From IMG/VR virus record IMGVR_UViG_3300044797_000047, positions 1 through 31,421 of that record: DNA of 31,421 nucleotides. One strand, written 5' to 3'. The notes beneath the pieces were generated by a model. That model ran no database searches and had not been told where the DNA came from. It saw nothing but the letters and a program-made list of their open reading frames with translations. Shown here piece by piece: positions 531 through 27,601 of this stretch. The stretch's first letter is position 1, and the number at the start of each line of letters is the position of its first letter. The stretch comes from a virus. The translations under genes were made by a program, and so were the position numbers.

Positions 531-1499
531 CTACTGTGCTTTTACAATCCCTGAATAAACATCGTACAGAAAATCGTCAACCCACTGCTCATCCGGTTTC
601 GCTCTCAACAAAGAATTAGCCTGTGCTACTTCTAAATCTAACAGTCCAGCGTCAATGATAGCTTCTACTTCTTTATATCCCATCTTTCCTGTTTTGATAT
701 CTAACAAAAGCTGACGGTTGGGACATGGGAACGTGATAAAGCCTGTTCTCAACAACTCTTGCCCCTCAAAGTTAACCCTGACAGCATGACTGACAGCTTT
801 CCAGTCAATCCCATCGTTTACTTCAGCCAATTTTGCTCTATGTCCATATTCAGCATAGATCTTGCCTAAAATCCCAAGGCTATACTTCACGGAATTCGTC
901 ATCTGAAACTTGCGACCACAAACCTCAAAATATTTGCGAGTAATACCATTCGGATCAGTACCTTCAAAATACTTAATGAATTCATCCCCTCGAGCTATGA
1001 AAGCGTCAAGTGGCAATTCCTGCAATAAAGCCATACCATCAAATGTATTAAGAAATTCAATGGTGTCCTTTACCGATCGAACACGTGAACCTTTAATCCC
1101 GTACTTACTGGCTTGCTTCCGAGCATAGCCAATGAAGCTCAAGATGCCTTTTGACAGCAGCTTATCTTTATTATCATATATTGTCTTAAATAAGTGATAA
1201 TCTTTTCCCTTAAAGATCTGGAAGGAATCAGGGGCGAAAAGCATATCAAGAGCTACTGTCTGACCATCACAAAGCAGACGCAGATATTCTGTGAGGCTAA
1301 AAATCTCAGAATCTACGTCATCCTTGGTGTTCTTTTCATACTCACGCTTGGGTCTAGAGGTACTGATGTTCCTATTTACACGAGCTAAGACAATCTCTCG
1401 TGCAGTGGGAACATAGATACCCTTAAAATCTGAGTCACTTAACGGAGTATCAGTCCCGTAAAGATGAGACCCAAATTTGATCTCTACAATCTTGTTCAT
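531..1499 (-). CDS. RlaP-like nucleotidyltransferase (DNA polymerase beta superfamily)
   Basis: The N-terminus carries the signature of minimal nucleotidyltransferases: G10-S11, then SDSD with D22 and D24, followed by FKGIYVP. A later acidic residue (D63 in DVDSEIFSL) is placed to be the third metal ligand. This matches the predicted nucleotidyltransferase family named RlaP (RNA repair pathway, polymerase-beta type; PF10127), and 322 aa suits it. Such enzymes add nucleotides to an acceptor; the substrate of this family is not well defined. The start codon overlaps the stop of the upstream 48-aa gene (ATGA), with an AAGG ribosome-binding site inside that gene. It lies directly upstream of two tRNA loci, which makes an RNA substrate plausible but unproven. 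Confidence 0.8.
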   Translation of the reverse strand: MNKIVEIKFGSHLYGTDTPLSDSDFKGIYVPTAREIVLARVNRNISTSRPKREYEKNTKDDVDSEIFSLTEYLRLLCDGQTVALDMLFAPDSFQIFKGKDYHLFKTIYDNKDKLLSKGILSFIGYARKQASKYGIKGSRVRSVKDTIEFLNTFDGMALLQELPLDAFIARGDEFIKYFEGTDPNGITRKYFEVCGRKFQMTNSVKYSLGILGKIYAEYGHRAKLAEVNDGIDWKAVSHAVRVNFEGQELLRTGFITFPCPNRQLLLDIKTGKMGYKEVEAIIDAGLLDLEVAQANSLLRAKPDEQWVDDFLYDVYSGIVKAQ

Positions 1500-2349: not shown

Positions 2350-3117
2350 TTAAATAGTTTCGTTGTTACGCAATGTTAAGATGGTAGGAGGTTGACCTGC
2401 AGGATTGACTACAATTGTATGCTCAAAATGAGCAGCTACCTCACCTGAGAGCATCCACGTGTTCCATTGACCCTTTTGATGATAGATAGCAGGATCGCCG
2501 ATGCAAAAGATTGGTTCTATGCACAAAACCATACCTGTAACCAACAAAGAATTCTTATTCTGATCAACGTAGTTAGGAATTCCAGGACCTTCATGGATTG
2601 ACTGTCCTATACCATGTCCAGTGAATGGTTGGATCACCCCAGATTCATTTCTAGCAGCATAAATTGCTCTGCTGACATCTTGCACGGTATTGCCTTCTAA
2701 AGCTGCTCTAATGCCATCTCTCATTGCAGAGTATGTGTTCTCTGCAAGCTTCCGAACCTCAGGGCGAACGGGTGGAACTAAAACAGTCATAGCGGAATCA
2801 GCTTTCCAACCTTTATAGTCTACAACCATGTCTAATTTAATAACATCGCCTGGGCGAAAAGGTGTATTATTAGGGACACAATGAACAGCTCCAGAATTGA
2901 CTGAAATGCACATGCCATTGGGAAAATTATCGTATCCCTTACAAGCAGCTGTTGCACCAAAAGATTGTACAAAATCATCGCCCAGTTTATCGATCTCAAG
3001 ACCAGTAACTCCAGGTTGTACCTTGGAAGATAAAAAGCTGAGGCAATCCGAGAGGATCACCGCAGCTTTAGTAATTAATTCAATTTGTTCAGGGGTTTTA
3101 AGCGTTATTGTGCTCAT
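2350..3117 (-). CDS. map: Methionine aminopeptidase, type I
   Basis: Removes the initiator methionine from new proteins and needs two metal ions. All expected residues are visible at the usual spacing for type I enzymes: H79 (AVHCVPN), metal ligands D96 (KLDMVVD), D107 (KADSAMT), H168 (TGHGIG), E201 (CIEPIF) and E232 (FEHTIVV). The 255-aa length is that of the compact bacterial enzyme, with no N-terminal extension. The ribosome-binding site AAGAGA lies just before the ATG, inside the end of the upstream gene, with a 20-bp overlap. The enzyme looks active. In a phage it may speed maturation of virion proteins, or resist host shut-off (inference). Confidence 0.93.
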   Translation of the reverse strand: MSTITLKTPEQIELITKAAVILSDCLSFLSSKVQPGVTGLEIDKLGDDFVQSFGATAACKGYDNFPNGMCISVNSGAVHCVPNNTPFRPGDVIKLDMVVDYKGWKADSAMTVLVPPVRPEVRKLAENTYSAMRDGIRAALEGNTVQDVSRAIYAARNESGVIQPFTGHGIGQSIHEGPGIPNYVDQNKNSLLVTGMVLCIEPIFCIGDPAIYHQKGQWNTWMLSGEVAAHFEHTIVVNPAGQPPTILTLRNNETI

Positions 3118-5246: not shown

Positions 5247-6032
5247 TTATCGCCTAATTGTCCAAAAATCGCTTGCCAAGTCTGGGTTAGAGATATAAGC
5301 ATAAGGAAGCTTGAAATATCCTTGCAATCCCCAACTTGGGCCCCAGGAATTACGCACGATCACTACTTGTTCTTTATCGTCATATCCTACTGCTAATACA
5401 GCGTGTCCACCAACGCAAGAATCAGTCATCTGATTTGGCATTGGTACTAAACCTGTTTGCGCAACCTCTGGACTTTCGAACGAGTCATAAACTGTAAATC
5501 CAAAAGCAAATGGAAATCCAGCCGCAAGACAGTGTTTCATATCTGCTAACGTGTCTAAACGAATATAGGCCGTAATCTTATGATTTAGGGCCTCAGCATA
5601 AGCTGCATCAGCGGGTTTATTAAAAACCTTTGACTCATCATACGGCCAAAGAGATTCTGGAGCAGCACCCAATGTCGCTAGGGTTTTAATGCCATCACGA
5701 ATCTGTCCACCTGCATCCTCATTAATTGTACCTTCCATAGCACGCTCATTATAATAAATAAACAAGTGAGAGAAGGTTGCATATTGATTTTGTATTAAGA
5801 TCTCAGGCGAAGCAGTTTTGGTAACTAAAGACTGTTCCTCTAAGAATTCAAGTGCACCAGCTAAAGAAAAGCTTGTGCAAGATCCTAATTGATCTTGGTT
5901 TTCCACTGGTGAACATTTAGGACGAAGATCCACCGCTGTAGGTAGCATTTCAAGTTTACAGACATGATGATTTGATGAGTAGTGAATATCTCTAATATCT
6001 GGTAAATCAGGTTTCCACGTAAATTTATGCAT
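5247..6032 (-). CDS. Papain-like cysteine peptidase (C1 family)
   Basis: A complete papain-type active site is visible: oxyanion Q46 and nucleophile C52 in NQDQLGSCTSF, H210 in CVGGHAVLAVGYD, and N228 in VRNSWGPSWG. The N-terminus WKPDLPDIRDIHYS is the short lead-in typical of bacterial and archaeal C1-like peptidases. At 261 aa there is no room for an inhibitory propeptide and no signal peptide is seen. AGGAG lies 6 bases before the ATG. It heads the minus-strand block 6032-3451, divergent from the plus-strand gene at 6119. The target is unknown; host envelope peptides, host proteins or virion maturation are all possible. Confidence 0.9.
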   Translation of the reverse strand: MHKFTWKPDLPDIRDIHYSSNHHVCKLEMLPTAVDLRPKCSPVENQDQLGSCTSFSLAGALEFLEEQSLVTKTASPEILIQNQYATFSHLFIYYNERAMEGTINEDAGGQIRDGIKTLATLGAAPESLWPYDESKVFNKPADAAYAEALNHKITAYIRLDTLADMKHCLAAGFPFAFGFTVYDSFESPEVAQTGLVPMPNQMTDSCVGGHAVLAVGYDDKEQVVIVRNSWGPSWGLQGYFKLPYAYISNPDLASDFWTIRR

Positions 6033-8062: not shown

Positions 8063-11000
8063 TTATTCGACTACGACGTAATAGACTTTTACTGAAGCTG
8101 GAACGAGCTGATTAACTATACTCTCGAGCGTTGTTAATAAAGGAAGAATAAACTCCCCTGGATCATTGATTGTAATAATTACGCCGAATGCCAATGTACC
8201 AGTATCCCAAAGAACGGGAACAGGTAATTGAGTCTCATTGTATTGCAATCTATAAGCTGTAACTGATTCTGTTGGTCCAAACCATTGATTTGCTAAAACT
8301 AAAGATGTATTTGATAGAATTTCTGCCACGGTACCTAAATAAATACCACCTGCATCAGTTATCTGATCACCAACTGTAAGCTGTGTCAAAAACTCTGTTC
8401 CAGGTATATAAGAATCAGCAGGAACAGTTACCGTACCAGCACTAGGGAATGTAACAGTGGTCGCAGAAGGTCCATAACACAATGCTCTGCCATTAAGTAC
8501 ACTTGAAGCTGCAAATGTAATGGATGTACCTGCCAAGATCGTACCATTCACAGTATTATTAGCCCCAAAGGTGAACGTAGTTCCTGTGATGAAATATACA
8601 TTGGCTGCTGTTGCTCCACCAGTTAAAACAACTGTCGCATTTGCGGGAAGTGTAAGAGAAGTTCCAAACGAAAAGATGTATGTACCAGCGCCATTCAAAG
8701 TAAGAGGTCCTGCTGACCAAGTACCAGCTGCAGAAGCATTATAATGTCCTGGTGTAGCGACATAACCACCAAGATCCGTCGAAGTGATATTAGTAGTAAC
8801 TGGCATTGCCAATAATGTGGCTGCTGCATTAGTAGCATCAGTATGCGCCTGTGCTGCAGCTGCATCGCCACTATGTAAATTGCCTGTAAACGTACCAGGA
8901 GGAAAGCCTGATACCGTACTGCCAGGAGAAACACCAAGATCTCCGGTCAAAACGGTATCACCAGTATTCGTTACTGCTGTACCAGCCAAAACAGCATAGG
9001 TATTAGCAGTTAATAAGGGTGCTGGGAGAACGGCTGTGTTTCCAGTGACAGCAGTACTGCCATTTGTAAACGTTACTATTCCTGATAAAGCGGTTGCTCC
9101 TTGTAATGGATTAAATATCTTAATAGGAGAACCGGTATCAAATGTAGCCTGAAGTGTATGGGTTGTTGGGGTATTCATTGTAAAATAACCTAGCGCCATA
9201 TTTACAGTATAATCAGATGGTGGAACTATCAATCCAGAACCTGGAGCAGAACTTGCTGGCACTGTAACCAATCCAGCGCTTGGAAATGTTACTGTGGTAC
9301 CAGAAGGTCCATATGTAAGAGCTCTGCCGTTAAGAACACTATTAGAAGCAAAAGTAATAGAAGTACCAGCTAAAATAGTACCATTAATCGTATCGTTGGC
9401 TCCAAATGTGAAGGTTGTACCTGTTACAAAGTAGACATTATCAGCTGTAGCACCATTTTCTAAAATAACGCTACAATTTGCACCAACCGTAAGGGAAGTT
9501 CCAAATAAGAATACATAAGTTCCTGCTCCATTTAGAGTAAGATTGCCAGTTGCAGTCCATGTTCCAGCTGCTGTTGCACTATATACGCCTGGGGTTGCTA
9601 CGAACCCGTTTAAATCAGTAGAACTAATGTTAGTTCCAGGTCCCATTCCTTGCAAGCTTGTGGCTGCAGCAGTTGCATCAGTATGAGCTTGAGCAGCTGC
9701 TGTGTCACCTTGATGAAGATCACCAGAATAAGTTCCTGGAGGAAAACCTGTAATAGTCGTCCCTGGAGAAATACCAAGATCTCCGTGGAGAACAGTATTT
9801 CCAGTGTTTGTTACAGCAGTATCGCCTAAAACAGCATAGGTTGAGGCTGTTAAAAGGTATGGATTGCCTGCACCTTGTGTAACATCTTCTACAACCAATT
9901 CCGAGCTGAATGGAGATGACAGATAAAATACTGATTGCTCAATTGTATCACCAGCGGTCATGCCAGTTGTTGAAGAAACAGTTAAATGAGTTGGATCAGT
10001 GATAGCTGTAACAGTAAAAGGAACAGAAACGGTTGTATCTAAGGCAGAACCAGTAACCCATCCAACTGTACTGCCAACTACTAAATGAGTACCATCTATA
10101 ACAGTTGTAATTGTGGTTGTATTAAGTACTTGAGTTATAGGTTGATCTTGACTTGTGGTTAAGATGAAGTTATTCTGATCACGAACATTAGTAATTGTTG
10201 GATCAATACCAGTAAAAGCACTCACGGCTAAAATAACAGCCTCATTAGTTCCACCAACCAAAGAAGCTAGATATAGATTTATCAAAATCCAACGATAATC
10301 TACATATTGCATGTTAAGAGGCTTAGGAAAATTAAACATCACGCCGAAATTTTGATATAGATCTTCATCTACACATAGATCTACGAAATTGTTTGTTCGG
10401 GTAAGATATGTTGTGTAATAAACCTGATCAAGTTGATTCCCATACATATTCTCAACAAGCCATAGGTTAGTCTTACGCTGATCAACTGGTTTTAAAAGAT
10501 CACCCTTTCCATAAACGTGATAATCTGGTAAAGAATTCATCAATGCTTCTGCAGTCGATTGCTGTACACTCATTGGAATAGTCCACTCTAAAATATCAGA
10601 CCATCCTGAGATAAATGAACCAGTATGTGTTCGTACTCGAGCATACCATGTTTGAACAATCCCATTTACTCGAGGAGCTACTGGAACAGCAAAACCCTTT
10701 CTAACATTACCATTTTGAAAAGTAATAGCCGTAAGCTGTGTAAATGTAACCAAATTTGGACCACTAAAGCTAACATAGTCAGCCGCCATTCCTGCAACAA
10801 GTCCAGCAGTATTGGAAACGATCAAATGCGTTGAGTCAATGATTGAATTAATGATAGCCGTGGTATTCCCTTGAAAGATAGAGTTACCGACTGCCATTCC
10901 AGCGGTGGAAGAAACAATCAAATGAGCAGAATCTACTACTGTAACTACTGTAAAAGAAAAGGATGCAGTATCTAGTTCCAAATCAAAACCAGCATCTGCT

Positions 11001-11170
11001 AATGATGGAGAAATAAATAATGGATTAAATCCCCACCAAAATACATAGACGCCATCTTGAGATGTTCTATAAAAACGTAAATCTTCTGGAATACTAGAAT
11101 CTTCAGCTGACGTTGCGCCAGTGTAGAATCTACCTGATCCGTAAAGACTTCCTGATCCGTAAAATCCCAT
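8063..11170 (-). CDS. gpI-like baseplate protein carrying two DUF3494 (ice-binding-like) domains (1035 aa)
   Basis: Starts with a Gly/Tyr-rich MGFYGSGSLYGSGRFY and an Ig/FnIII-like beta region holding two THL-type repeats (about 73-133). Residues 205-345 (PDYHVYGKGD..., LYQNFGVMFNFPKP..., LASLVGGTNEAV) look like a P2 gpI-type tail protein, as does the end LVPASVKVYYVVVE. Two more THL repeats follow (352-412). Two DUF3494 domains lie at about 440-640 and 719-918, each with TYAVL..TAVTNTG, GDLG.SPG, FPPGT and NGTILAGTSITF. The second splits a phage beta motif between VTFTNGSTAVTGN and GTEFLTQLTVGDQI, which shows clean insertion. Family gpI proteins are far shorter; the excess is the inserts. 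Position after gpJ and a fibre supports the baseplate role. Confidence 0.8.
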   Translation of the reverse strand: MGFYGSGSLYGSGRFYTGATSAEDSSIPEDLRFYRTSQDGVYVFWWGFNPLFISPSLADAGFDLELDTASFSFTVVTVVDSAHLIVSSTAGMAVGNSIFQGNTTAIINSIIDSTHLIVSNTAGLVAGMAADYVSFSGPNLVTFTQLTAITFQNGNVRKGFAVPVAPRVNGIVQTWYARVRTHTGSFISGWSDILEWTIPMSVQQSTAEALMNSLPDYHVYGKGDLLKPVDQRKTNLWLVENMYGNQLDQVYYTTYLTRTNNFVDLCVDEDLYQNFGVMFNFPKPLNMQYVDYRWILINLYLASLVGGTNEAVILAVSAFTGIDPTITNVRDQNNFILTTSQDQPITQVLNTTTITTVIDGTHLVVGSTVGWVTGSALDTTVSVPFTVTAITDPTHLTVSSTTGMTAGDTIEQSVFYLSSPFSSELVVEDVTQGAGNPYLLTASTYAVLGDTAVTNTGNTVLHGDLGISPGTTITGFPPGTYSGDLHQGDTAAAQAHTDATAAATSLQGMGPGTNISSTDLNGFVATPGVYSATAAGTWTATGNLTLNGAGTYVFLFGTSLTVGANCSVILENGATADNVYFVTGTTFTFGANDTINGTILAGTSITFASNSVLNGRALTYGPSGTTVTFPSAGLVTVPASSAPGSGLIVPPSDYTVNMALGYFTMNTPTTHTLQATFDTGSPIKIFNPLQGATALSGIVTFTNGSTAVTGNTAVLPAPLLTANTYAVLAGTAVTNTGDTVLTGDLGVSPGSTVSGFPPGTFTGNLHSGDAAAAQAHTDATNAAATLLAMPVTTNITSTDLGGYVATPGHYNASAAGTWSAGPLTLNGAGTYIFSFGTSLTLPANATVVLTGGATAANVYFITGTTFTFGANNTVNGTILAGTSITFAASSVLNGRALCYGPSATTVTFPSAGTVTVPADSYIPGTEFLTQLTVGDQITDAGGIYLGTVAEILSNTSLVLANQWFGPTESVTAYRLQYNETQLPVPVLWDTGTLAFGVIITINDPGEFILPLLTTLESIVNQLVPASVKVYYVVVE
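8417..9016 (-). other. DUF3494 domain, second copy in gpI-like protein
   Basis: Encodes residues about 719-918. Key elements are NTYAVLAGTAVTNTGDTV, TGDLGVSPGSTVSGFPPGT, GGYVATPGHY, and NGTILAGTSITFAASSVL, followed by NGRALCYG. This is the right-handed beta-solenoid ice-binding-like family (PF11999). It is diverged from the first copy at DNA level, so the duplication is not recent or the copies arrived separately. Confidence 0.85.
9251..9853 (-). other. DUF3494 domain, first copy in gpI-like protein
   Basis: Encodes residues about 440-640. Key elements are STYAVLGDTAVTNTGNTV, HGDLGISPGTTITGFPPGT, NGFVATPGVY, and NGTILAGTSITFASNSVL, then NGRALTYG. Ends in an SSAPGSG linker that resembles the SSAPGT linker after the sheath copy. 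Confidence 0.85.
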
Positions 11171-13637: not shown

Positions 13638-15494
13638 TTATGATTCTACAGTGATAGTTAAACTATTTGTCACTGTATAAGCATTATTACCTACGAAAAT
13701 TTGCTGTCCTGGTGGAATTGTTGTGGTTACTCCACTGTCAACTGATTGTAAGATCAAGCTACTTAAATCTACCTCTGATACACCGGCTACGGTTTGTGTA
13801 ACTGTAACCAGTTCACTCAAAACGACTGTAGCGCCAAGACCAAGTGAATTGATATATGTCGAAAGCGCAGTTTGAACATTTGTAATAACAGTAGCAGATA
13901 CATAACCAGGGATGACCAAAATTCCTGCTGTAAAATTAATGAATGCCTGAGTAGCTTCAAAGACCAAAATATCTGATCCAATAATATGATTAGAATTATT
14001 ATCTAAAAGGGCTTGAAGTGTAGGGATTAAACTATCATATGTATAGGTGACAGTAACCACCGTGTTATTATCTGGAACGAACCCACCAAATGAAGCGGAT
14101 CCAGCTATAAAAGGCGAAACATTTGTTACCGTAATTAATGTTGAGCTAACAATAGATGTTATTGATGTAGAAGCTAAACCTTGGCTAATCACATCGCCTA
14201 CGCTCATTCCTGATGCTGTAGAAACTGTCAATTGATTAACTGAGATATCAGCTGCACTTCCAGTACTCCATCCGAGTGTTGAGTTAACGACCAAATGCGT
14301 TCCATCAGGAATTGATGTAATAGTTGTTGCAAAAGCACCTTGTTTAATCGTATCACCGATTGTCATACCTGCGGTGGAAGAAACAATCAAATGAGTACCA
14401 TCTGTAACCGTAGCAACAGTAAATGGAAGTCCTACTGTGGTAATATTAAAAAACGTTTTGATAGTAAACGTGATATAACTTCCTGCATCAATGCTTCCTG
14501 CAAATAAGATATTTGGATTTAATTCAAATAGATAATCAACGCCAGGTATAAATGTATATGGGTTGCCACCAACAACCCCAGTCACTGATCCAACTGATAG
14601 CGCTGGTTGATTAAGCAATATATAAGACTGGGAACCTGTTGAAGAATATGTAAACGTTTCTGTTACTGTTACTGGTATCTGTCCACGAATATAAACGTTA
14701 ACGCTGCCGCCGTATTGATTTCTGGATGGAGGATTTGGGTCATTTGGTCCAACAACTAGAGCTTGAATAACATTTGGGTTAGTCTCCATGAGACTTTCAA
14801 TGCCATTAGGAGTACCAACGTTGTTTCCTTCAAGCTTAATCTGAATGCGCGCTGCAAATTGAATGTTAGATTCAACGTTAGTTCCACCGCTTGTAATAGC
14901 AGTGTTTGTTACAGCATCAACACCAATACCAGGTCCAACAAGTGATGTAATTGTGTTTGCAGCAACGTTACCTACTGTCCCGATTGTTTGAGCTACGATT
15001 GTCGTGCTTTGTTCATAGAAACCTGTAACTGGATTGAAGTAGCTTGGCGCAAGAGATGGGATAAACGTTACGGTTGCTGTTGTAGCAAATGATACAGCTG
15101 GTGAAGCCGATGTAGACAAGGTAGATACTGTTGTACCAGAAGGAACTGTGATGATAGGACTAGAGGTTGTATAATTTCTAATACGAAACGTCACGATACC
15201 AGTGGCTTGCGTACCTGGGAGACGAGTCATACCATAGTTGTTACCAATAGCATCAAGATCAGCCATAGATATGATAGCTGCATTAGTAACAAAAGCCTGA
15301 ACATCTTGAACATATTGGATAGCTGGGTATACTCCTGTATCTGTTGTACCATTCTCTGGTGAAAGTTCATTAGCAACCGTAGAACAAACCACGTCATTTA
15401 CAACGCTTCCTGTCTGCGTCGCGATATCTGGGCGCGAAGCTTGTAAAAACGAAAGCATGTTTGTTAAAATTTGACTAAATGTAGGAAGAGCCAT
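13638..15494 (-). CDS. Baseplate wedge protein, gpJ-like (Baseplate_J family), with inserted THL repeats (618 aa)
   Basis: The start (FSQILTNMLSFLQASRPDI...GSVVNDVV) and the middle (ADLDAIGNNYGMTRLPGTQATG, VPSGTTVSTLS, GTVGNVAANTITSLV, SNIQFAARIQIKLEGNN) are strong gpJ signatures. The C-terminal half returns to the family at about 495 (LQALLDNN...), then VATVILSELVTV-type strands. Between about 357 and 475 lie three short beta repeats with the core TDGTHLIVSSTAGMTIGD, absent from ordinary gpJ proteins, so this is an insertion. Forms the baseplate wedge together with the gp25-like and gpI-like products. Directly downstream of the gp25-like gene, the P2-like order. Confidence 0.92.
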   Translation of the reverse strand: MALPTFSQILTNMLSFLQASRPDIATQTGSVVNDVVCSTVANELSPENGTTDTGVYPAIQYVQDVQAFVTNAAIISMADLDAIGNNYGMTRLPGTQATGIVTFRIRNYTTSSPIITVPSGTTVSTLSTSASPAVSFATTATVTFIPSLAPSYFNPVTGFYEQSTTIVAQTIGTVGNVAANTITSLVGPGIGVDAVTNTAITSGGTNVESNIQFAARIQIKLEGNNVGTPNGIESLMETNPNVIQALVVGPNDPNPPSRNQYGGSVNVYIRGQIPVTVTETFTYSSTGSQSYILLNQPALSVGSVTGVVGGNPYTFIPGVDYLFELNPNILFAGSIDAGSYITFTIKTFFNITTVGLPFTVATVTDGTHLIVSSTAGMTIGDTIKQGAFATTITSIPDGTHLVVNSTLGWSTGSAADISVNQLTVSTASGMSVGDVISQGLASTSITSIVSSTLITVTNVSPFIAGSASFGGFVPDNNTVVTVTYTYDSLIPTLQALLDNNSNHIIGSDILVFEATQAFINFTAGILVIPGYVSATVITNVQTALSTYINSLGLGATVVLSELVTVTQTVAGVSEVDLSSLILQSVDSGVTTTIPPGQQIFVGNNAYTVTNSLTITVES

Positions 15495-15504
15495 AGTAAT
15501 GTCC

Positions 15505-15981
15505 TTATATTGTGCTAATTTGAATACCAGTCGTTATTTCTTGCCCGCTAGCTGCTATAACGGTAAGTAAAGTTGAAACACTGGTTAGGTTTTGAAGCTG
15601 CGTGTTTAATGAGTAAAGCGTTTGTACGACCTCTGCCGGGTTGGAGCGATTTTGAGTAAGCAGATACAAGATTTGAAGCGCTTGAGTAATCTGTTGCTGA
15701 ACTGTACCTGCAATCGTATTAGGATTTACCTTGTTACCAATTACAGATTGAAGCGTTGTACCATACAAAGGGAAAAGAATATTATCACCTTGTTCGGTAA
15801 GCAAGATCTTTAATATGTCTTGTTGCGTTTCCTCAAGACCAGTCACCAAAGTAAAATCATTATTAGATCCAATCTGAAGATCATTGGTCTGCTCTCCAAA
15901 ATACTGGGGAGGATTTCCCTGTTGTGGAGGATACTGTGGCTGTCCTGGAAAGTTAAGCGTTGTAAGTAAAAGATCTGACAA
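15505..15981 (-). CDS. Baseplate wedge protein, gp25/gpW-like (158 aa)
   Basis: After a Pro/Gln-rich N-terminus, residues about 45-105 fit the T4 gp25 / P2 gpW fold: FTLVTGLEETQQDILKILLT, then GDNILFPLYGTTLQSVIG, the position where the family has its conserved GE..F.P.FGS.L element. The helix QQQITQALQILYLLTQN follows. The Glu of the lysozyme-like family motif is replaced (GD in place of GE). Placed between the spike and gpJ genes as in other contractile tails. Length is slightly above the family norm owing to the N- and C-terminal extensions. Confidence 0.8.
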   Translation of the reverse strand: MSDLLLTTLNFPGQPQYPPQQGNPPQYFGEQTNDLQIGSNNDFTLVTGLEETQQDILKILLTEQGDNILFPLYGTTLQSVIGNKVNPNTIAGTVQQQITQALQILYLLTQNRSNPAEVVQTLYSLNTQLQNLTSVSTLLTVIAASGQEITTGIQISTI

Positions 15982-20409: not shown

Positions 20410-22137
20410 TTATATCATGTACTTCTTTGGATCATTATGCGGAGCAATATTCTTTGCAGTATAAGGATTCTGAACTGGTCCACCTTTTGGCGCGCCAAAA
20501 TATTTAGACAAAACTCCTTCAAGACGATTAAAAAACTCTTCAGTCCATTGTGCCATCTTTTGAATTGGAGATACAATTTCACTTAGGTGTTCCATACCCT
20601 CAATGCTTAATCGTTTCCCCCTCTTTGCCATTTCTTCGGTTTGCTTTGCAAAATCTTCAGCCTTTGTGCCACCAACTTTTCCTAAAGTAGAAGCCATCTT
20701 AAAAAATTGTGGAAGATCTTGTAACTGAATCCCTAATCCCATATCTTTATTTAGTTGATTAGCCATCATAATCTGTTCTAATGGATTTTTAGATTGACCA
20801 CCAACTTTCGTTAAAAAATTACCCATTAAAGCAAAAGGATTATTTATAGTTCCTTGGTTATTAGGACCAATTCCAACTGCAGGAGTGCCAAATAAATCTG
20901 ATACAGTTGGCATCTTACCATTAACAAATGTGGACATACCAAGGATTTTCTCAAGTGAAAGATTAGCTCCTGCACTTGCTACACCTAAAGTCATTCGAGT
21001 AGTTTCTGCTTCACTCTTTCCAATACCACGGAAAAAACTACCTACGGTATCAAGCACATTAGCTGCTACTGTTCCGTCATTAGTTATATTACGAAGGGCT
21101 TTCTGCATCTCTAATTGAGCAGAAATAGCATCAAGTTGCGTAATTTGAAGATCTTTAGAGGATTTAGCTGTCTGAAAAAATGTCTTTGATATATCTCTTT
21201 GTGACATACCTAAATTCTTAGTAGCATCAGTAAAAAGTTCCATCTCTTTAGAAGCATCAGGAAGAATATTAGCAAAAAGCCCTAAATTACCTGTGAGTCC
21301 TGAAGCCCCTGCTGTTGTTCCAGCTTGCCCTACCAATGTACGAGATTGAGCCATTCCAGTCAAAAGATCACGACGTTCAGAAGGACCCAAAGCAGCAATA
21401 CTTATCCCACCAAATACTCTATCGCTTAATGATTGAGCTGTCGCCTCAGCTCCAAATCCAGTTTGACTAAGTGGCCCTGCTCCAGCACCAGCAAGTTGTA
21501 ATCCTACTTTTATATTCTTTGATTTCTGAATCGTTGCCTCAAGAAGAGCTGCAACGATTGCACCTGGAATTGCAACCTCCGGTTCAGCAATAATATTTGC
21601 TGCACCAGATACTAAACCGCCGATTGGACCACCAATACGACTAGCAACATTCTGAACACCTTGTAAACTACGACCAAGAATTCCAGGACCTTTTGCATTA
21701 GCAGCGGCTTTTGCTTCGATATCTGAAATTTGTTTTGTTGCTTTAAGAGCTAAATCAAGTTTACCTCTAGAGATTGATTCAGATGAGGCTTTCTCAGCTT
21801 GCGCTCTTTGTTCAAAAGCAGCAATTTGAGCTTTTGTTTCCTCATTTACGCTATCAATGGCAGCTCGTTTTAATCGGTCAACATTAACACGGCGTTCATT
21901 TTCTTTATCACCAACTAGTTTATAAAATTGTTCTTGATCTTTTAAATTGTTTTTAATCGTGTTTTGAAAAGCTGAACCAAAGTTTTTAGCAACGCCATCC
22001 AATACCTTCTGTAGATCATTAAAAGCCTCAATAGCAGGTCTAACATTAACAGATACATCAGACTTAGCGTTCTGTTGAGAGAAAAATGGATTAGAAATAG
22101 GTTGCCCGTTAGGGCCTAATAAAGGAGAATCAGCCAA
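20410..22137 (-). CDS. Tape measure protein (575 aa)
   Basis: Long helical protein with coiled-coil regions (about 35-145, rich in Lys, Glu, Gln, Ala), a hydrophobic Gly/Ala/Ile segment at about 169-200 (GGPIGGLVSGAANII and following) that may enter the host membrane, and a Gly/Ala-rich middle. It lies right after the chaperone genes and a small membrane protein, the canonical tape-measure place. By the usual 1.5 angstrom per residue, 575 aa implies a tail of roughly 85 nm (inference). No peptidase or lysozyme domain is seen. Confidence 0.85.
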   Translation of the reverse strand: MADSPLLGPNGQPISNPFFSQQNAKSDVSVNVRPAIEAFNDLQKVLDGVAKNFGSAFQNTIKNNLKDQEQFYKLVGDKENERRVNVDRLKRAAIDSVNEETKAQIAAFEQRAQAEKASSESISRGKLDLALKATKQISDIEAKAAANAKGPGILGRSLQGVQNVASRIGGPIGGLVSGAANIIAEPEVAIPGAIVAALLEATIQKSKNIKVGLQLAGAGAGPLSQTGFGAEATAQSLSDRVFGGISIAALGPSERRDLLTGMAQSRTLVGQAGTTAGASGLTGNLGLFANILPDASKEMELFTDATKNLGMSQRDISKTFFQTAKSSKDLQITQLDAISAQLEMQKALRNITNDGTVAANVLDTVGSFFRGIGKSEAETTRMTLGVASAGANLSLEKILGMSTFVNGKMPTVSDLFGTPAVGIGPNNQGTINNPFALMGNFLTKVGGQSKNPLEQIMMANQLNKDMGLGIQLQDLPQFFKMASTLGKVGGTKAEDFAKQTEEMAKRGKRLSIEGMEHLSEIVSPIQKMAQWTEEFFNRLEGVLSKYFGAPKGGPVQNPYTAKNIAPHNDPKKYMI

Positions 22138-23198: not shown

Positions 23199-23729
23199 TT
23201 ATGCTGGTTCGCCAATTACTGTAGAACCTGTATAACCAAAATCAACTGCTTCCATGACGCGAAGATCGCCACCATTGATATTATAGGTTGCACCTACGCT
23301 ATGGATCCAAACGCCTGTGAAGATTGTGGATTTTGTTGGTATACCTGAACCTGCTGGTGCAATTTCTTGCTTCAGGATACCGATAGGAGCATTATTATTT
23401 ACAATGTCATCACCTGTGATGCCAAGTGTTTCTAAAGCATCAGAAACATAGAGCATTACACGATCTGCGTGTAAAGAATACTCATCAACCGTGCGAGGAA
23501 GACGTTCAACTGGTTTACCCTGTTGATCGCTATCCAATTCAAATCGAAAGTCTGTGTTTCGACGTTGTGTTTGAGTAAATGATTGTACCGCACCAATCTT
23601 TGCACTCTGTGTAGCTAGAGCCAAGAGAGCTGCTGGGTTATTCAGAGTTGTTGCATTCAAGCTCTGAGGTAAAACGAATAATGATACGCTAGTAGAAAGC
23701 CTTGCAGTTGTATTTCCAAGTTCAGCCAT
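23199..23729 (-). CDS. Tail tube protein (176 aa)
   Basis: Size and place (directly after the sheath gene, before the chaperone) are those of contractile-tail tube proteins. The sequence is beta-rich with a conserved-looking core: NTDFRFELDSDQQGKPVERLP, HADRVMLYVSDALETLG, and a final strand set VGATYNINGGDLRVMEAVDFGYTG. AAGGAGA lies before the ATG. Forms stacked hexamers inside the sheath. No inserted domains, unlike the sheath and baseplate proteins. Confidence 0.85.
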   Translation of the reverse strand: MAELGNTTARLSTSVSLFVLPQSLNATTLNNPAALLALATQSAKIGAVQSFTQTQRRNTDFRFELDSDQQGKPVERLPRTVDEYSLHADRVMLYVSDALETLGITGDDIVNNNAPIGILKQEIAPAGSGIPTKSTIFTGVWIHSVGATYNINGGDLRVMEAVDFGYTGSTVIGEPA

Positions 23730-23773: not shown

Positions 23774-26284
23774 TTATACTAAGTTCAATCCAAGCGTAAT
23801 TAGAATTGTGTCAAGTTCCAATACTGGTTGAATACCTACCTGAAGCAGAATCTGCGTAGGCTGTAATGGATTTACTGTTGCTGTAGGTTGTACGAAAGAC
23901 TCGATGATATCTGCATCTTCGATTGTCTGTAGAATTGCTCCTGAAACAGTTTCAACCTGTGAAGGAGTATTCGAAAGCAACTTCTGTCCGATGAAGATTG
24001 GATCGAGAAGTCCACGAAGTGTTTGAGCCGTATAATCGGTGATTTCTGTAACCTGATATAGCTGGTTCAAAATTGTGTCGAATTCTGTGGTCGTTCCAAA
24101 CACAACTTTAGCAGAACCACTGATATTATCAACAATGAGTACGCCAGCATTTGACAAGATTACTTTCTGTGCCTGAGCCAGGGTATTTGTTGTTGTGATA
24201 CCCGTTACGACTTCACGAGTAAGTGGTTGTGCAACATCGAAGGCTGGGTTGGTACGAAGAGCGGCTAAAGCTGAAGCCATCATCGTACCATCAACTGTGG
24301 ATGCTGTCTGGTTTGTCCCGATGAACATAGAATCGGTTGTAGATGTTTGGTTAACTACGACAACGCGATTGCTAGAAGCAGCGGTTGCATAACCAAGCAT
24401 TGTTGTCATGTTTGTGAAGCTAGGATCATTAGCGGCAAAACCAATGAAAGCTGTGCGCTCTAATCGGTTGATCGTGCTAGACGCTGTCTCAACGTGTGCT
24501 GTAATATCTGGAATGAGCATTGCATTGTCTGCAGCATCCAGAGATACAACGATGTTGATGTTTGGAATGAAAAGTTTTTGAAGAGCTGCACGAACCTGAG
24601 AAGCGTTCGAACCGTCTGCTGGATTCATCTGCATCAAACAAACAATACTTGCGCCGTTTTGCTGAGCAAGCTGTGCTGCGATTGGAAGAGTCCAAGCTCC
24701 GTTCATGTTGGCTGTTTGACTATCTCCACCACCAACGGTTCCCATTGCATTTGTAATTGTTGTGAAATTCTGTGTGAAAAAGAATTGAGGTTGGAAAGAA
24801 TTCTGTCCATCACCCAATGCTTTTGCCCATTCGTAATTAGGATAGTAAACTACGCCTGCTACTGGACGAGAAGGAGTAGAAACCAATGAACCAGCTACGA
24901 AACCGAGGATAGCATTTGCTGTCCCGTTTTCAACTGTAAGAGAAGAGTTAGAAGTACCTGTCGTAGAAATTACCAAAGTGCCAGGAGCAGAAGATCCTGC
25001 AACAACTGTGTCTGTGGTGTTATTTAAGGTAACGGCTGCTGTCAAAGCAAACAAGCGACCCATAATTGTGCTACCACCATCATCAGTGACACTGGCTTGA
25101 GCAAGAATTGTTCCTTTAAATTGTGTAGCTGTTCCTAATGTAGCAGAACTTCCAACCTGCCAGTAAACATTACCAGCATTTCCACTATTGATCATAGTTA
25201 CGATAGCAGCTGTAGCTGTTACGAGTGTAGAACCAATTTGGAATACCCATTGAGCGTCAGGATTGCCCTGACCATCTAATGTAAGTGTACCAGTAAGTGC
25301 TGCTGAAGAAGCGAATTTGTAAACGCCAGCTGTTAGTGTACGTCCACCAAGATCACCAGTCAATACTGTTGCACCAGTGAGATTTTGAAATGCTGTATAA
25401 GCTGTAGTAGCGTCAGCTAAAGCTGTAGCAGCTGCACTGTTACCATTGTTGGTTGTTCCAACAACTGTTGGAGAACCTGTGATAGAACCAGCAGGACTTA
25501 AAGCTACATTTCCTGTTAAGGTTGTGCTACCTGTGTTTGTAATAGTGCTGCTTGCAATAACAGCATATGTAGAAGCTGAAGCAAGAGCTGGTACTGAAAC
25601 TTCTGTAGCAGATGCGATTGCTGCAATAGTATGTGCACTAAAATATGCGTTCATCGTAGCAGCAACTTCAGCAGCTGTTGTTTCAGTTGTAAAAGGAATT
25701 GTTTGAATTGGACCACCAGCAACGCTTAACTGGAAATTTAATCCACTAAGACTTGTGTAAGGATCAGAAGCTGTACCAGTAAGACTTGCAGCTAAGGAAA
25801 GCCAAGTAATATCACCGACTGACACGTCAACTGCTTCTCCTGCAACCCAGTTGGTTGTGCTTCCAACAACTAGATGTGTACTGTCAGTGACAGTTGTAAT
25901 TGTTGTCGTAAAAGTTCCAGCGTTATTAATCTGTGTTATTGTATCTCCAGCAGTCATGCCAGTTGTTGATGCAACGACTAGATGCGTGCTATCTGTTACT
26001 GTCGTAACTGTGAAAGCAAAGCCTAGAATATAATCAATGCCATTTTCGTAGGTAGCATAATTAGCATCTGTGATCGTAGTTCCATCCAATGCGACTGCCT
26101 TGTGAGCAAGCACATCAGTGTTCCCTGATCCACGAGTAACTGCTTCACCCGTAACTAAATTGGTTAATCGACCGGTACCAATAAAAGCAGTAACTCTTAT
26201 GCCACCTGTTACAGAAGCTAAAAGCTGTTGCTGTACTTGATCGTAAACTCCTGGTAAAACTGGTTGATTATTAATTGAAGGCAT
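23774..26284 (-). CDS. Tail sheath protein with an inserted DUF3494 domain and THL repeats (836 aa)
   Basis: The start MPSINNQPVLPGVYDQ is the usual sheath N-terminus. I use the ATG at 26284 because AAGGAGA lies 6 bases before it; an upstream TTG in frame (26302) overlaps that site. The C-terminal half has sheath features: AAQLAQQNGASIVCLMQMNP, TAFIGFAANDPSF, SNRVVVVNQT, RTNPAFDVAQPL, and AQKVILSNAGVLIVD. Insertions enlarge it: two THL-type repeats (about 90-160) and one DUF3494 domain (about 232-431). The DUF3494 domain splits a known phage domain between TAAEVAATMNAYF and LVISTTGTSNSSLTVENGTA. Sheath subunits cover the tail in hexameric rings, so the domain would be displayed many times. 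Confidence 0.9.
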   Translation of the reverse strand: MPSINNQPVLPGVYDQVQQQLLASVTGGIRVTAFIGTGRLTNLVTGEAVTRGSGNTDVLAHKAVALDGTTITDANYATYENGIDYILGFAFTVTTVTDSTHLVVASTTGMTAGDTITQINNAGTFTTTITTVTDSTHLVVGSTTNWVAGEAVDVSVGDITWLSLAASLTGTASDPYTSLSGLNFQLSVAGGPIQTIPFTTETTAAEVAATMNAYFSAHTIAAIASATEVSVPALASASTYAVIASSTITNTGSTTLTGNVALSPAGSITGSPTVVGTTNNGNSAAATALADATTAYTAFQNLTGATVLTGDLGGRTLTAGVYKFASSAALTGTLTLDGQGNPDAQWVFQIGSTLVTATAAIVTMINSGNAGNVYWQVGSSATLGTATQFKGTILAQASVTDDGGSTIMGRLFALTAAVTLNNTTDTVVAGSSAPGTLVISTTGTSNSSLTVENGTANAILGFVAGSLVSTPSRPVAGVVYYPNYEWAKALGDGQNSFQPQFFFTQNFTTITNAMGTVGGGDSQTANMNGAWTLPIAAQLAQQNGASIVCLMQMNPADGSNASQVRAALQKLFIPNINIVVSLDAADNAMLIPDITAHVETASSTINRLERTAFIGFAANDPSFTNMTTMLGYATAASSNRVVVVNQTSTTDSMFIGTNQTASTVDGTMMASALAALRTNPAFDVAQPLTREVVTGITTTNTLAQAQKVILSNAGVLIVDNISGSAKVVFGTTTEFDTILNQLYQVTEITDYTAQTLRGLLDPIFIGQKLLSNTPSQVETVSGAILQTIEDADIIESFVQPTATVNPLQPTQILLQVGIQPVLELDTILITLGLNLV
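24992..25591 (-). other. DUF3494 (ice-binding-like) domain inside the sheath
   Basis: Encodes STYAVIASSTITNTGSTTL, TGNVALSPAGSITGSP, GDLGGRTLTAGVYKFASSAA, GTLTLDGQGNPDAQWVFQIG, and NVYWQVGSSATLGTATQFKG. These are the standard PF11999 blocks in order, closer to free-standing family members than the two baseplate copies. Confidence 0.88.
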
Positions 26285-26428
26285 TGTGAATCTCCTTAAC
26301 AAAGATTTTAAATCGATTTTTTAGTTACAAAATTGTCGGTAAACAAGAATAGTCTACGCTATGAACGTAGTGCTCCTATTATAATGGAGAAATATTATAC
26401 TTTTATCACAAATATTATTGTTATCTAC
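26285..26428. other. 144-bp intergenic region before the sheath gene
   Basis: The longest gap in the tail operon. It holds two short inverted repeats, CTACG...CGTAG (26354-26370) and CTCC...GGAG (26373-26389), the second enclosing a minus-strand TATAAT. No good -35 is seen, and neither repeat is followed by a T-run in the minus direction. A sheath promoter or a weak attenuator is possible. Confidence 0.3.
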
Positions 26429-27601
26429 TTATGATACAGTTATCGTTAAATTCTGCGTTCCTGTGCCAGTTGCATTGATAGCAGATAACGTTGCATAATA
26501 AGTACCAGAGGGCGTAGGAACACCGGAGATAAGCCCGTTAGAAGCATCAACGGTTAATCCTGATGGTAAGCCAATAGCAGCGTAGGAAGTAGGTGAATTT
26601 AAAGCGGTTATAACATAATTAAAGGGGAAATTACCATTATAAGAAGCATCTAAAGGACTATTTATAATTGGGATACCTGCTGTATAAACAGGTACATCAA
26701 CGCTAATGCTGCTTACATTTGTAATAGCTAGGTTGTCTGACCATTCGCAATAAACCCTTAATATAAAATGATTTTCAATATAAACACGCTGATTCTGAAC
26801 CAATCTAGTTTCAGTGGGAAGTGTACGATCAATCATCTCAATACCATTTACAGCAAGCTGATGCCTAATCTCTGATATGTTATTATAAATAAGATCAATG
26901 ATCTTATCACGGGCTAACGTGTCATCAATAGTATATACCTTAATATTAACGACTACAACAAGACTTGAGAATATCTGATCCTGAATAACGACATTAGCGG
27001 AATTCTTGGCTTGGAAGCTATCTTCTGGCCCTAAATAACGAGTCTCGCTTGCACTGGCTGTATCTACTACGATACATGGCCAATCTTGATAATCCTGTGG
27101 GACAGCATCAGAGATAAAAATCTCAGAATTATCAAAGTCAAACAACCCACCATTAATTAGGGTTGGGGATGAGGGTTTTAAAACAGTAGACACAACAGCC
27201 AATGTAATTGCATTCCCTGATACACCAGAAGTTGTAGCTAGTAATTGAATTTGATTTGGAATTGTATTTGTCTGCGCTGTTACAAGCAATGTGCTGGAAT
27301 TCGCATTGATGAGAGCAACTAAACTAGCCAACGTGATCTGTTGTGTTGCACCAATCTTGACCTGTAATCCTGTAGGCGTCATATTAACAAAGGTAATCAC
27401 ATTCGTGCCGATAGTAAAGGTATCACCATTTGCTGGGTTGCCATAAAACGTAAGATTAGCTGAAGAGGCTGTTTCAATATAATTATATTGAAATGGAGGA
27501 ACCACTGCTGTATTATGTCTGGGAGCAAAAATCTCTTTAAGCTCACGGATAACAGAGGTACGTACTCGAGTTAGGATTAAATATGGATTAGAGTTTGCCA
27601 T
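26429..27601 (-). CDS. Tail terminator-like protein with inserted domain and C-terminal Ig-like domain (390 aa)
   Basis: The N-terminal 40 residues (LTRVRTSVIRELKEIFAPRH) and the central part (SEIFISDAVPQDYQDWPCIVV, VVNIKVYTIDDTLARDKIID, VYIENHFILRVYCEW) look like a tail-completion or terminator protein. Residues about 43-152 are an inserted beta domain (GNPANGDTFTIGTNVITFV, TLASLVALINA, SGVSGNAITLA) seen in many phage tail proteins. Residues about 308-390 form a putative Ig-like domain of the He_PIG type, with GLPSGLTVDASNGLISGVP. Directly upstream of the sheath, the usual place for a terminator. The extra domains likely face outward at the neck. Confidence 0.7.
   Translation of the reverse strand: MANSNPYLILTRVRTSVIRELKEIFAPRHNTAVVPPFQYNYIETASSANLTFYGNPANGDTFTIGTNVITFVNMTPTGLQVKIGATQQITLASLVALINANSSTLLVTAQTNTIPNQIQLLATTSGVSGNAITLAVVSTVLKPSSPTLINGGLFDFDNSEIFISDAVPQDYQDWPCIVVDTASASETRYLGPEDSFQAKNSANVVIQDQIFSSLVVVVNIKVYTIDDTLARDKIIDLIYNNISEIRHQLAVNGIEMIDRTLPTETRLVQNQRVYIENHFILRVYCEWSDNLAITNVSSISVDVPVYTAGIPIINSPLDASYNGNFPFNYVITALNSPTSYAAIGLPSGLTVDASNGLISGVPTPSGTYYATLSAINATGTGTQNLTITVS

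Follow-up and report, generated by a model that had tools for sequence, protein, structure and literature searches.

Additional domains are a familiar feature of contractile tail sheaths. In a survey of 112 sheaths, these domains were mostly Ig-like, lay away from the tube and were suggested to contribute to adhesion or stability (PMC9230969), a sheath-stabilising role also being proposed there with phage 812 as the cited case. DUF3494 (PF11999) domains are described from a different context, that of ice-binding proteins. In one of them, AnpIBP, full ice binding requires residues S153 and T156 of the so-called B-face, and the substitutions S153Y and T156Y lose most of the activity (PMC7277481). 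In viruses, PF11999 has been reported in Arctic vOTUs among auxiliary metabolic genes, with host cryoprotection as the proposed reading, and S-SKS1 was named as a holder of PF11999 homologs (PMC11515562). That study is prior art for viral PF11999, not for PF11999 in virion proteins. Here we analysed a viral DNA of 31,421 nucleotides (IMG/VR record IMGVR_UViG_3300044797_000047, hereafter the window), in which a DUF3494 domain lies inside the tail sheath protein. We consider it very probable that DUF3494 is a binding module which these phages shuffle horizontally and display on the outside of the virion.

The sheath gene occupies positions 23774-26302 (-) and encodes 842 aa from a TTG codon; the true start may instead be the ATG at aa 7 (base 26284), because the relatives start with MPSIN. 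When the protein was searched by tblastn against 50,697 GenBank phage records, aa ~539-841, in its C-terminal half, matched 206 of them. Among the matches listed, identity to the sheath is 24-30% and nearly all carry a tail sheath annotation, the best match being LR745208, which is uncultured and unannotated. The window sheath gave zero matches to PHROG at E 0.1, and scanning a bacterial genome collection found no relative of the whole sheath. A relative with a core 54% identical, L040 (we use L numbers for relatives and G numbers for contigs), matches the PHROG tail sheath family phrog_2839 with an E-value of 4e-36. We also modelled L007, a homolog lacking the insert; the model, built from too few sequences, is of low confidence (mean pLDDT 47.8), and its first eight Foldseek matches are all sheath proteins, including 3hxl, 3lml, 6gkw and 3j9q, with a best E-value of 3e-4 (3hxl) and low TM scores. 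By homology, the 842-aa product is thus identified as a contractile tail sheath protein. Its conserved C-terminal core (aa 471-842, 23777-24892 (-)) is 83-92% identical within clade 1, with L015 at 74%. Closer to the N-terminus, the alignment delineates another, smaller shuffled beta module (aa 93-160, 25823-26026 (-)), which has TVTDSTHLVV-type repeats, varies in presence among relatives and had escaped the initial annotation. L006 and L007 have similar repeats in the gene upstream of their sheath, as does the window in the ORF at 8063-11170.

The sheath stands beside a myophage gene set. Downstream, a gp25-like sheath initiator (15505-15981 (-)) matches PF10934 with an E-value of 2.7e-8, and a baseplate J-like wedge protein (13638-15494 (-)) matches PF04865 (8e-20) and phrog_6 (1.7e-37), while the tube and the tape measure are assigned by position only. 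The protein of 176 aa adjoining the sheath (23199-23729 (-)) is probably the tail tube; it is 91-95% conserved in the relatives and had no match of its own in database searches, Pfam and PHROG included. An ORF of 575 aa (20410-22137 (-)), with a hydrophobic central stretch and no family match, is tape-measure-like as judged on its sequence and position. The gene upstream of the sheath (26429-27601 (-)) ends in a putative Ig domain (PF05345, 1.4e-9). The window also encodes a papain-family cysteine protease close to the tail genes (5247-6032 (-), PF00112, 1.1e-15), an M24 metallopeptidase (2350-3117 (-), 4.5e-37) and a RlaP-type nucleotidyltransferase (531-1499 (-), 2.9e-13).

The initial annotation, made by reading the sequence, had placed a full DUF3494 domain inside the tail sheath at 24992-25591 (-). 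These coordinates are right and correspond to about aa 238-437 of the 842-aa ORF, and the presence of a full domain is borne out by profile search, structure and comparison with empty sites. PF11999 matches sheath aa 248-430 (25013-25561 (-)) with an E-value of 2e-49 and 168.5 bits, for a cut-off of 28.7, and the match spans profile positions 1-206 of 208. A PF11999 search of the window DNA returned the same interval, free of stops, with an E-value of 7.7e-53. In the PDB, phmmer retrieved 25 sequences at E<=1e-3, the best being 6eio (7.1e-37). They are named ice-binding, antifreeze or DUF3494 proteins with one exception by name, the Ig domain protein 6bg8, which is a Shewanella DUF3494 domain. 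AlphaFold modelled the whole sheath with pLDDT values mostly of ~70-85 over the DUF3494 domain and the neighbouring beta module, and poorly elsewhere. All 31 Foldseek matches of this model below 1e-3 are DUF3494 ice-binding structures, among them 6eio (E 7.8e-17, TMt 0.82, rmsd 1.7) and 7bwx (TMt 0.91). The model of the domain contains the discontinuous beta-solenoid and the bracing helix, and reaches a TMt of 0.82-0.91 against the ice-binding structures that match best. Purifying selection acts on the insert (dN/dS 0.07-0.30), indicating that it has some function.

Comparison with relatives shows where the domain was inserted. DUF3494 is present in the sheaths of the window, L004/L008, L005, L006, L009, L010 and L011/L012, L011 and L012 probably being one virus since their sheaths are identical. 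It is absent from L007, L013/L014, L015 and L179, in which the outer beta domain is continuous, as in L007: INAAYGDTIASANGAHLELSTGTLTVPVLFNTSITIENG. In the window, the insert cuts this domain in a hairpin after TIASA, between IASA and the strand leading to SNSSLTVENG. The claim that a beta domain is split into halves which can still be matched across the insert was therefore correct, the same domain being unbroken in L007, L013, L015 and L179. The site itself is an insertion hot spot, because L012 and L010 bear extra repeat domains there besides DUF3494, and a sheath of a second clade (L190:3134-5098) has at the same site a repeat domain and no DUF3494. GIY-YIG homing endonuclease-like ORFs, recognised by reading the sequence, adjoin the sheath genes in two relatives (L004:9377-9991 and L006:10293-11171), and such ORFs may promote cassette exchange.

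All fusion carriers are metagenomic contigs. We regard an assembly artefact or a chance match as practically impossible. The same fusion, looked for in other sheaths as the initial annotation had proposed, was found in several independent IMG/VR contigs and in two sheath clades, which rules out a chimeric assembly; the E-values rule out a chance origin of the match, and the open frame and the purifying selection argue against both.

The second sheath clade comprises L040, L041, L043/L044 and L045-L047, which carry DUF3494, and L190, which does not. Its members are about 46-55% identical to the window in the core and 79-90% in the insert. At the DNA level, the region encoding aa 180-450 is 63-90% identical between the window and this clade, for a core mostly at 50-60%. 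The comparison with L040 is the clearest: the insert is 89.7% identical in amino acids with a dS of 0.85, and the core 53.5% identical with a dS of 2.95, while DNA identity is 76-90% throughout aa 180-450 and mostly 48-60% elsewhere. Since the insert is far closer than the core by all these measures, the sequences indicate that the whole outer cassette was exchanged after the two cores had separated. The swapped cassette, whose ends are approximate, covers about aa 165-470 (24893-25810 (-)) and consists of the outer beta domain interrupted by DUF3494.

A tree of the domains, built by a quick method with SH-aLRT support and no bootstrap, places the window insert in a sheath clade. In L011, the sheath insert groups instead with fibre/baseplate-type domains (27 rows, SH-aLRT 100) and is closest to a copy from the window's own 8063-11170 ORF, to which it is 85% identical. 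The L010 insert lies beside the fibre-type clade with weaker support (91). On this tree the sheath label has to change three times, and strong branches force at least two of these changes; together with the separate case of L130, this rules out a single ancestral insertion. Recent acquisition from a bacterial host was likewise rejected, because the window domain and most phage domains form clades of their own, separate from those of the bacterial domains retrieved. The L130 sheath (L130:5404-8373) belongs to an unrelated family: it is an ortholog of the sheath of Myxococcus phage Mx1, with 37% identity over the C-terminal half and an alignable N-terminus, and no PF11999 match was obtained for the Mx1 sheath by profile search. 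Its DUF3494 domain is permuted, profile positions 65-203 matching at aa 189-323 and being followed by a match to the N-terminal part from aa 344. These sequences point to an independent insertion of DUF3494 into an unrelated sheath family; the permutation, seen in a single contig, counts as one observation.

DUF3494 is not restricted to sheaths. In the window, a baseplate/tail-fibre protein of 1035 aa (8063-11170 (-)) matches PF11999 in two stretches (231 bits), corresponding to two fibre-type domains at 9314-9832 (-) (E 2.3e-39) and 8477-8992 (-) (E 8.9e-39) that the initial annotation of the sheath insert had missed, and a similar protein of L133 matches the tail fibre family phrog_1980. Further DUF3494 domains are found in orthologs of this protein and in other ORFs of G001, G003, G005 and G008. 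Altogether, 81 distinct non-sheath viral ORFs carry the domain, L130 being counted in. We scanned 55 non-sheath ORFs against PHROG, and all matches with a named function are to tail, fibre, minor tail, head decoration, head or virion proteins; 3 of the 12 families matched have no stated function, and many ORFs match none. Baseplate_J is fused to DUF3494 in one of these 55 ORFs and in L115. One non-sheath viral DUF3494 ORF bears a PEP-CTERM signal, like some bacterial DUF3494 proteins. DUF3494 is thus found on several kinds of virion proteins (sheath, baseplate/fibre, Baseplate_J) and moves between distant phages. Sheath-insert contigs of at least 25 kb also carry DUF3494 in other ORFs, the number of domains per contig being 3 in the window, 5 in G001, 3 in G003, 4 in G005, 2 in G007, 5 in G008, 2 in G015 and 3 in G016 (G007 and G008 are probably one virus). 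In contrast, profile searches found zero DUF3494 domains in G009 (151 kb) and G013 (180 kb), whose sheaths are insert-free. Because the carriers of sheath inserts hold more copies and G009 and G013 none, DUF3494 looks like a trait of the phage and not of the sheath alone, on small numbers.

We then looked for the domain in described phages. With four domain queries, tblastn (E 0.01 to 1) found no DUF3494 in the 50,697 GenBank phage records, a search by which distant copies could be missed. The method is not blind to the domain, since the window domain matched 38 plasmid records by the same procedure. Profile searches gave no PF11999 match in Tunturi_5, an Acidobacteriota jumbo phage, or in S-SKS1, although this type of search did retrieve the domain from other contigs. 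Our literature search combining DUF3494 with phage, or tail sheath with ice-binding, found no report in the literature covered, and the words "ice" and "beta-helix" are absent from the main text of the survey of 112 sheaths (PMC9230969).

The insert probably faces outward, as it is located between two core parts, where the additional domains of sheaths sit. This orientation is consistent with the data and is argued by analogy, because the model of the sheath core is of low confidence. The number of copies displayed can be approached from the tape measure, which sets tail length at 0.15 nm per residue, and from the sheath ring, which consists of six subunits and is about 4 nm high. With the ORF of 575 aa taken as the tape measure, the tail would be about 86 nm long and contain 21-22 rings, and thus about 130 copies of the insert at six per ring, consistent with the figure of over a hundred suggested in the initial annotation. 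The DUF3494 module would play the role supposed for Ig-like domains in other phages and attach the particle multivalently to an external target.

The ligand of this module is the part of which we are least sure. The initial annotation had named ice, polysaccharide, the host surface and shielding of the tail as candidate functions. Ice, or an ice-associated surface, is a real possibility that we rate somewhat below an even chance: the copies on the sheath (about 130) and on the baseplate/fibre proteins would bind it multivalently, so that virions would be held by ice or withstand freezing and thawing. The B-face of the sheath insert is intact. Its SSATLG segment (aa 385-390, 25133-25150 (-)) is identical in the alignment to the ice-binding segment S153-G158 of AnpIBP, so that the equivalents of both S153 and T156 are kept, and Thr or Ser occupy 15 of 24 outward B-face positions, for 40 of 171 elsewhere (p 1.9e-4). 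In fibre-type domains, the L011 sheath insert included, several coils have a T-x-x-T pattern, which resembles the T-A/G-X-T/N repeat of FfIBP. Of the solved structures, 6eio comes closest and is that of an Antarctic ice-binding protein, and palsa, bog, fen and Antarctic genomes are among the sources of some bacterial relatives. However, ordinary soil bacteria also keep these B-face residues in their DUF3494 domains, so they indicate an intact face and do not by themselves prove ice binding; this face also occurs in bacteria without a cold label, such as Nocardia, and the domain is carried by Streptomyces plasmids. A search of papers for six sample identifiers returned no habitat. A glycan, or a surface of the host or its matrix, is a ligand that we rate as equally likely as ice; the module would then aid adsorption and the ice-binding name would be historical. 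Such a role would fit a domain that occupies the niche of the Ig-like sheath domains (PMC9230969), is found on fibre and baseplate proteins as well, and varies and is swapped as adsorption modules are, and DUF3494 has been called an ice- and substrate-binding domain (PMC12337378). The small and mostly uncharged residues of the B-face, as expected for ice, argue against it.

A third reading dispenses with the ligand and makes the domain a spacer or shield that merely stabilises or armours the sheath, as proposed for additional sheath domains (PMC9230969, citing phage 812). Close relatives that do without DUF3494, or bear another repeat domain at the site, would be compatible with such a role. 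We nevertheless judge it unlikely, since the domain is also carried by fibre and baseplate proteins, where no ring has to be stabilised, and since its solvent-facing B-face is conserved. A binding module displayed by the virion is the reading we retain. If its ligand were ice, these phages would be ice-binding viruses, with a multivalent ice-binding virion able to survive freezing or to remain near hosts associated with ice, and the viral PF11999 genes listed as ice-binding auxiliary genes would mostly be virion parts and not genes for protecting the host; this wider proposal is somewhat doubtful.

These observations add an unexpected fold, the DUF3494 beta-solenoid, to the range of domains borne by phage tails, and one that occurs in two unrelated contractile sheath families, is exchanged as a cassette and is common to fibre and baseplate proteins. 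They suggest that viral PF11999 genes now taken as host cryoprotection genes may often encode virion parts, and, with a virus particle for which ice is a possible ligand, they provide a case that is directly testable.

Among known systems, the Mx1 tail sheath is of the same family as that of L130 and differs from it by having other middle domains, with no match to PF11999. The Arctic vOTU genes likewise are PF11999 genes encoded on viral contigs, but were read as host cryoprotection (PMC11515562), whereas the domains described here are fusions with proteins of the virion, those of the tail and baseplate included. With DUF3494 proteins, the nearest of which are 6eio (EfcIBP) and AnpIBP (7bwx), the sheath insert has in common the full domain, the fold and, for AnpIBP, the B-face segment SSATLG. 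Known DUF3494 ice-binding proteins are however cellular and typically secreted, while the window's domain is inside a structural protein of the virion and its ice binding is putative. The closest likeness in position and behaviour is with the Ig-like sheath domains (Evseev et al. 2022, PMC9230969; Fraser et al. 2006, cited there), which are also added between sheath core parts and away from the tube, vary between phages, are horizontally exchanged and have been proposed to help adhesion. The fold sets the two apart: the sheath domains described so far are Ig-like sandwiches, or helical in AR9/PBS1 (PMC9230969), whereas that of the window is a DUF3494 beta-solenoid.
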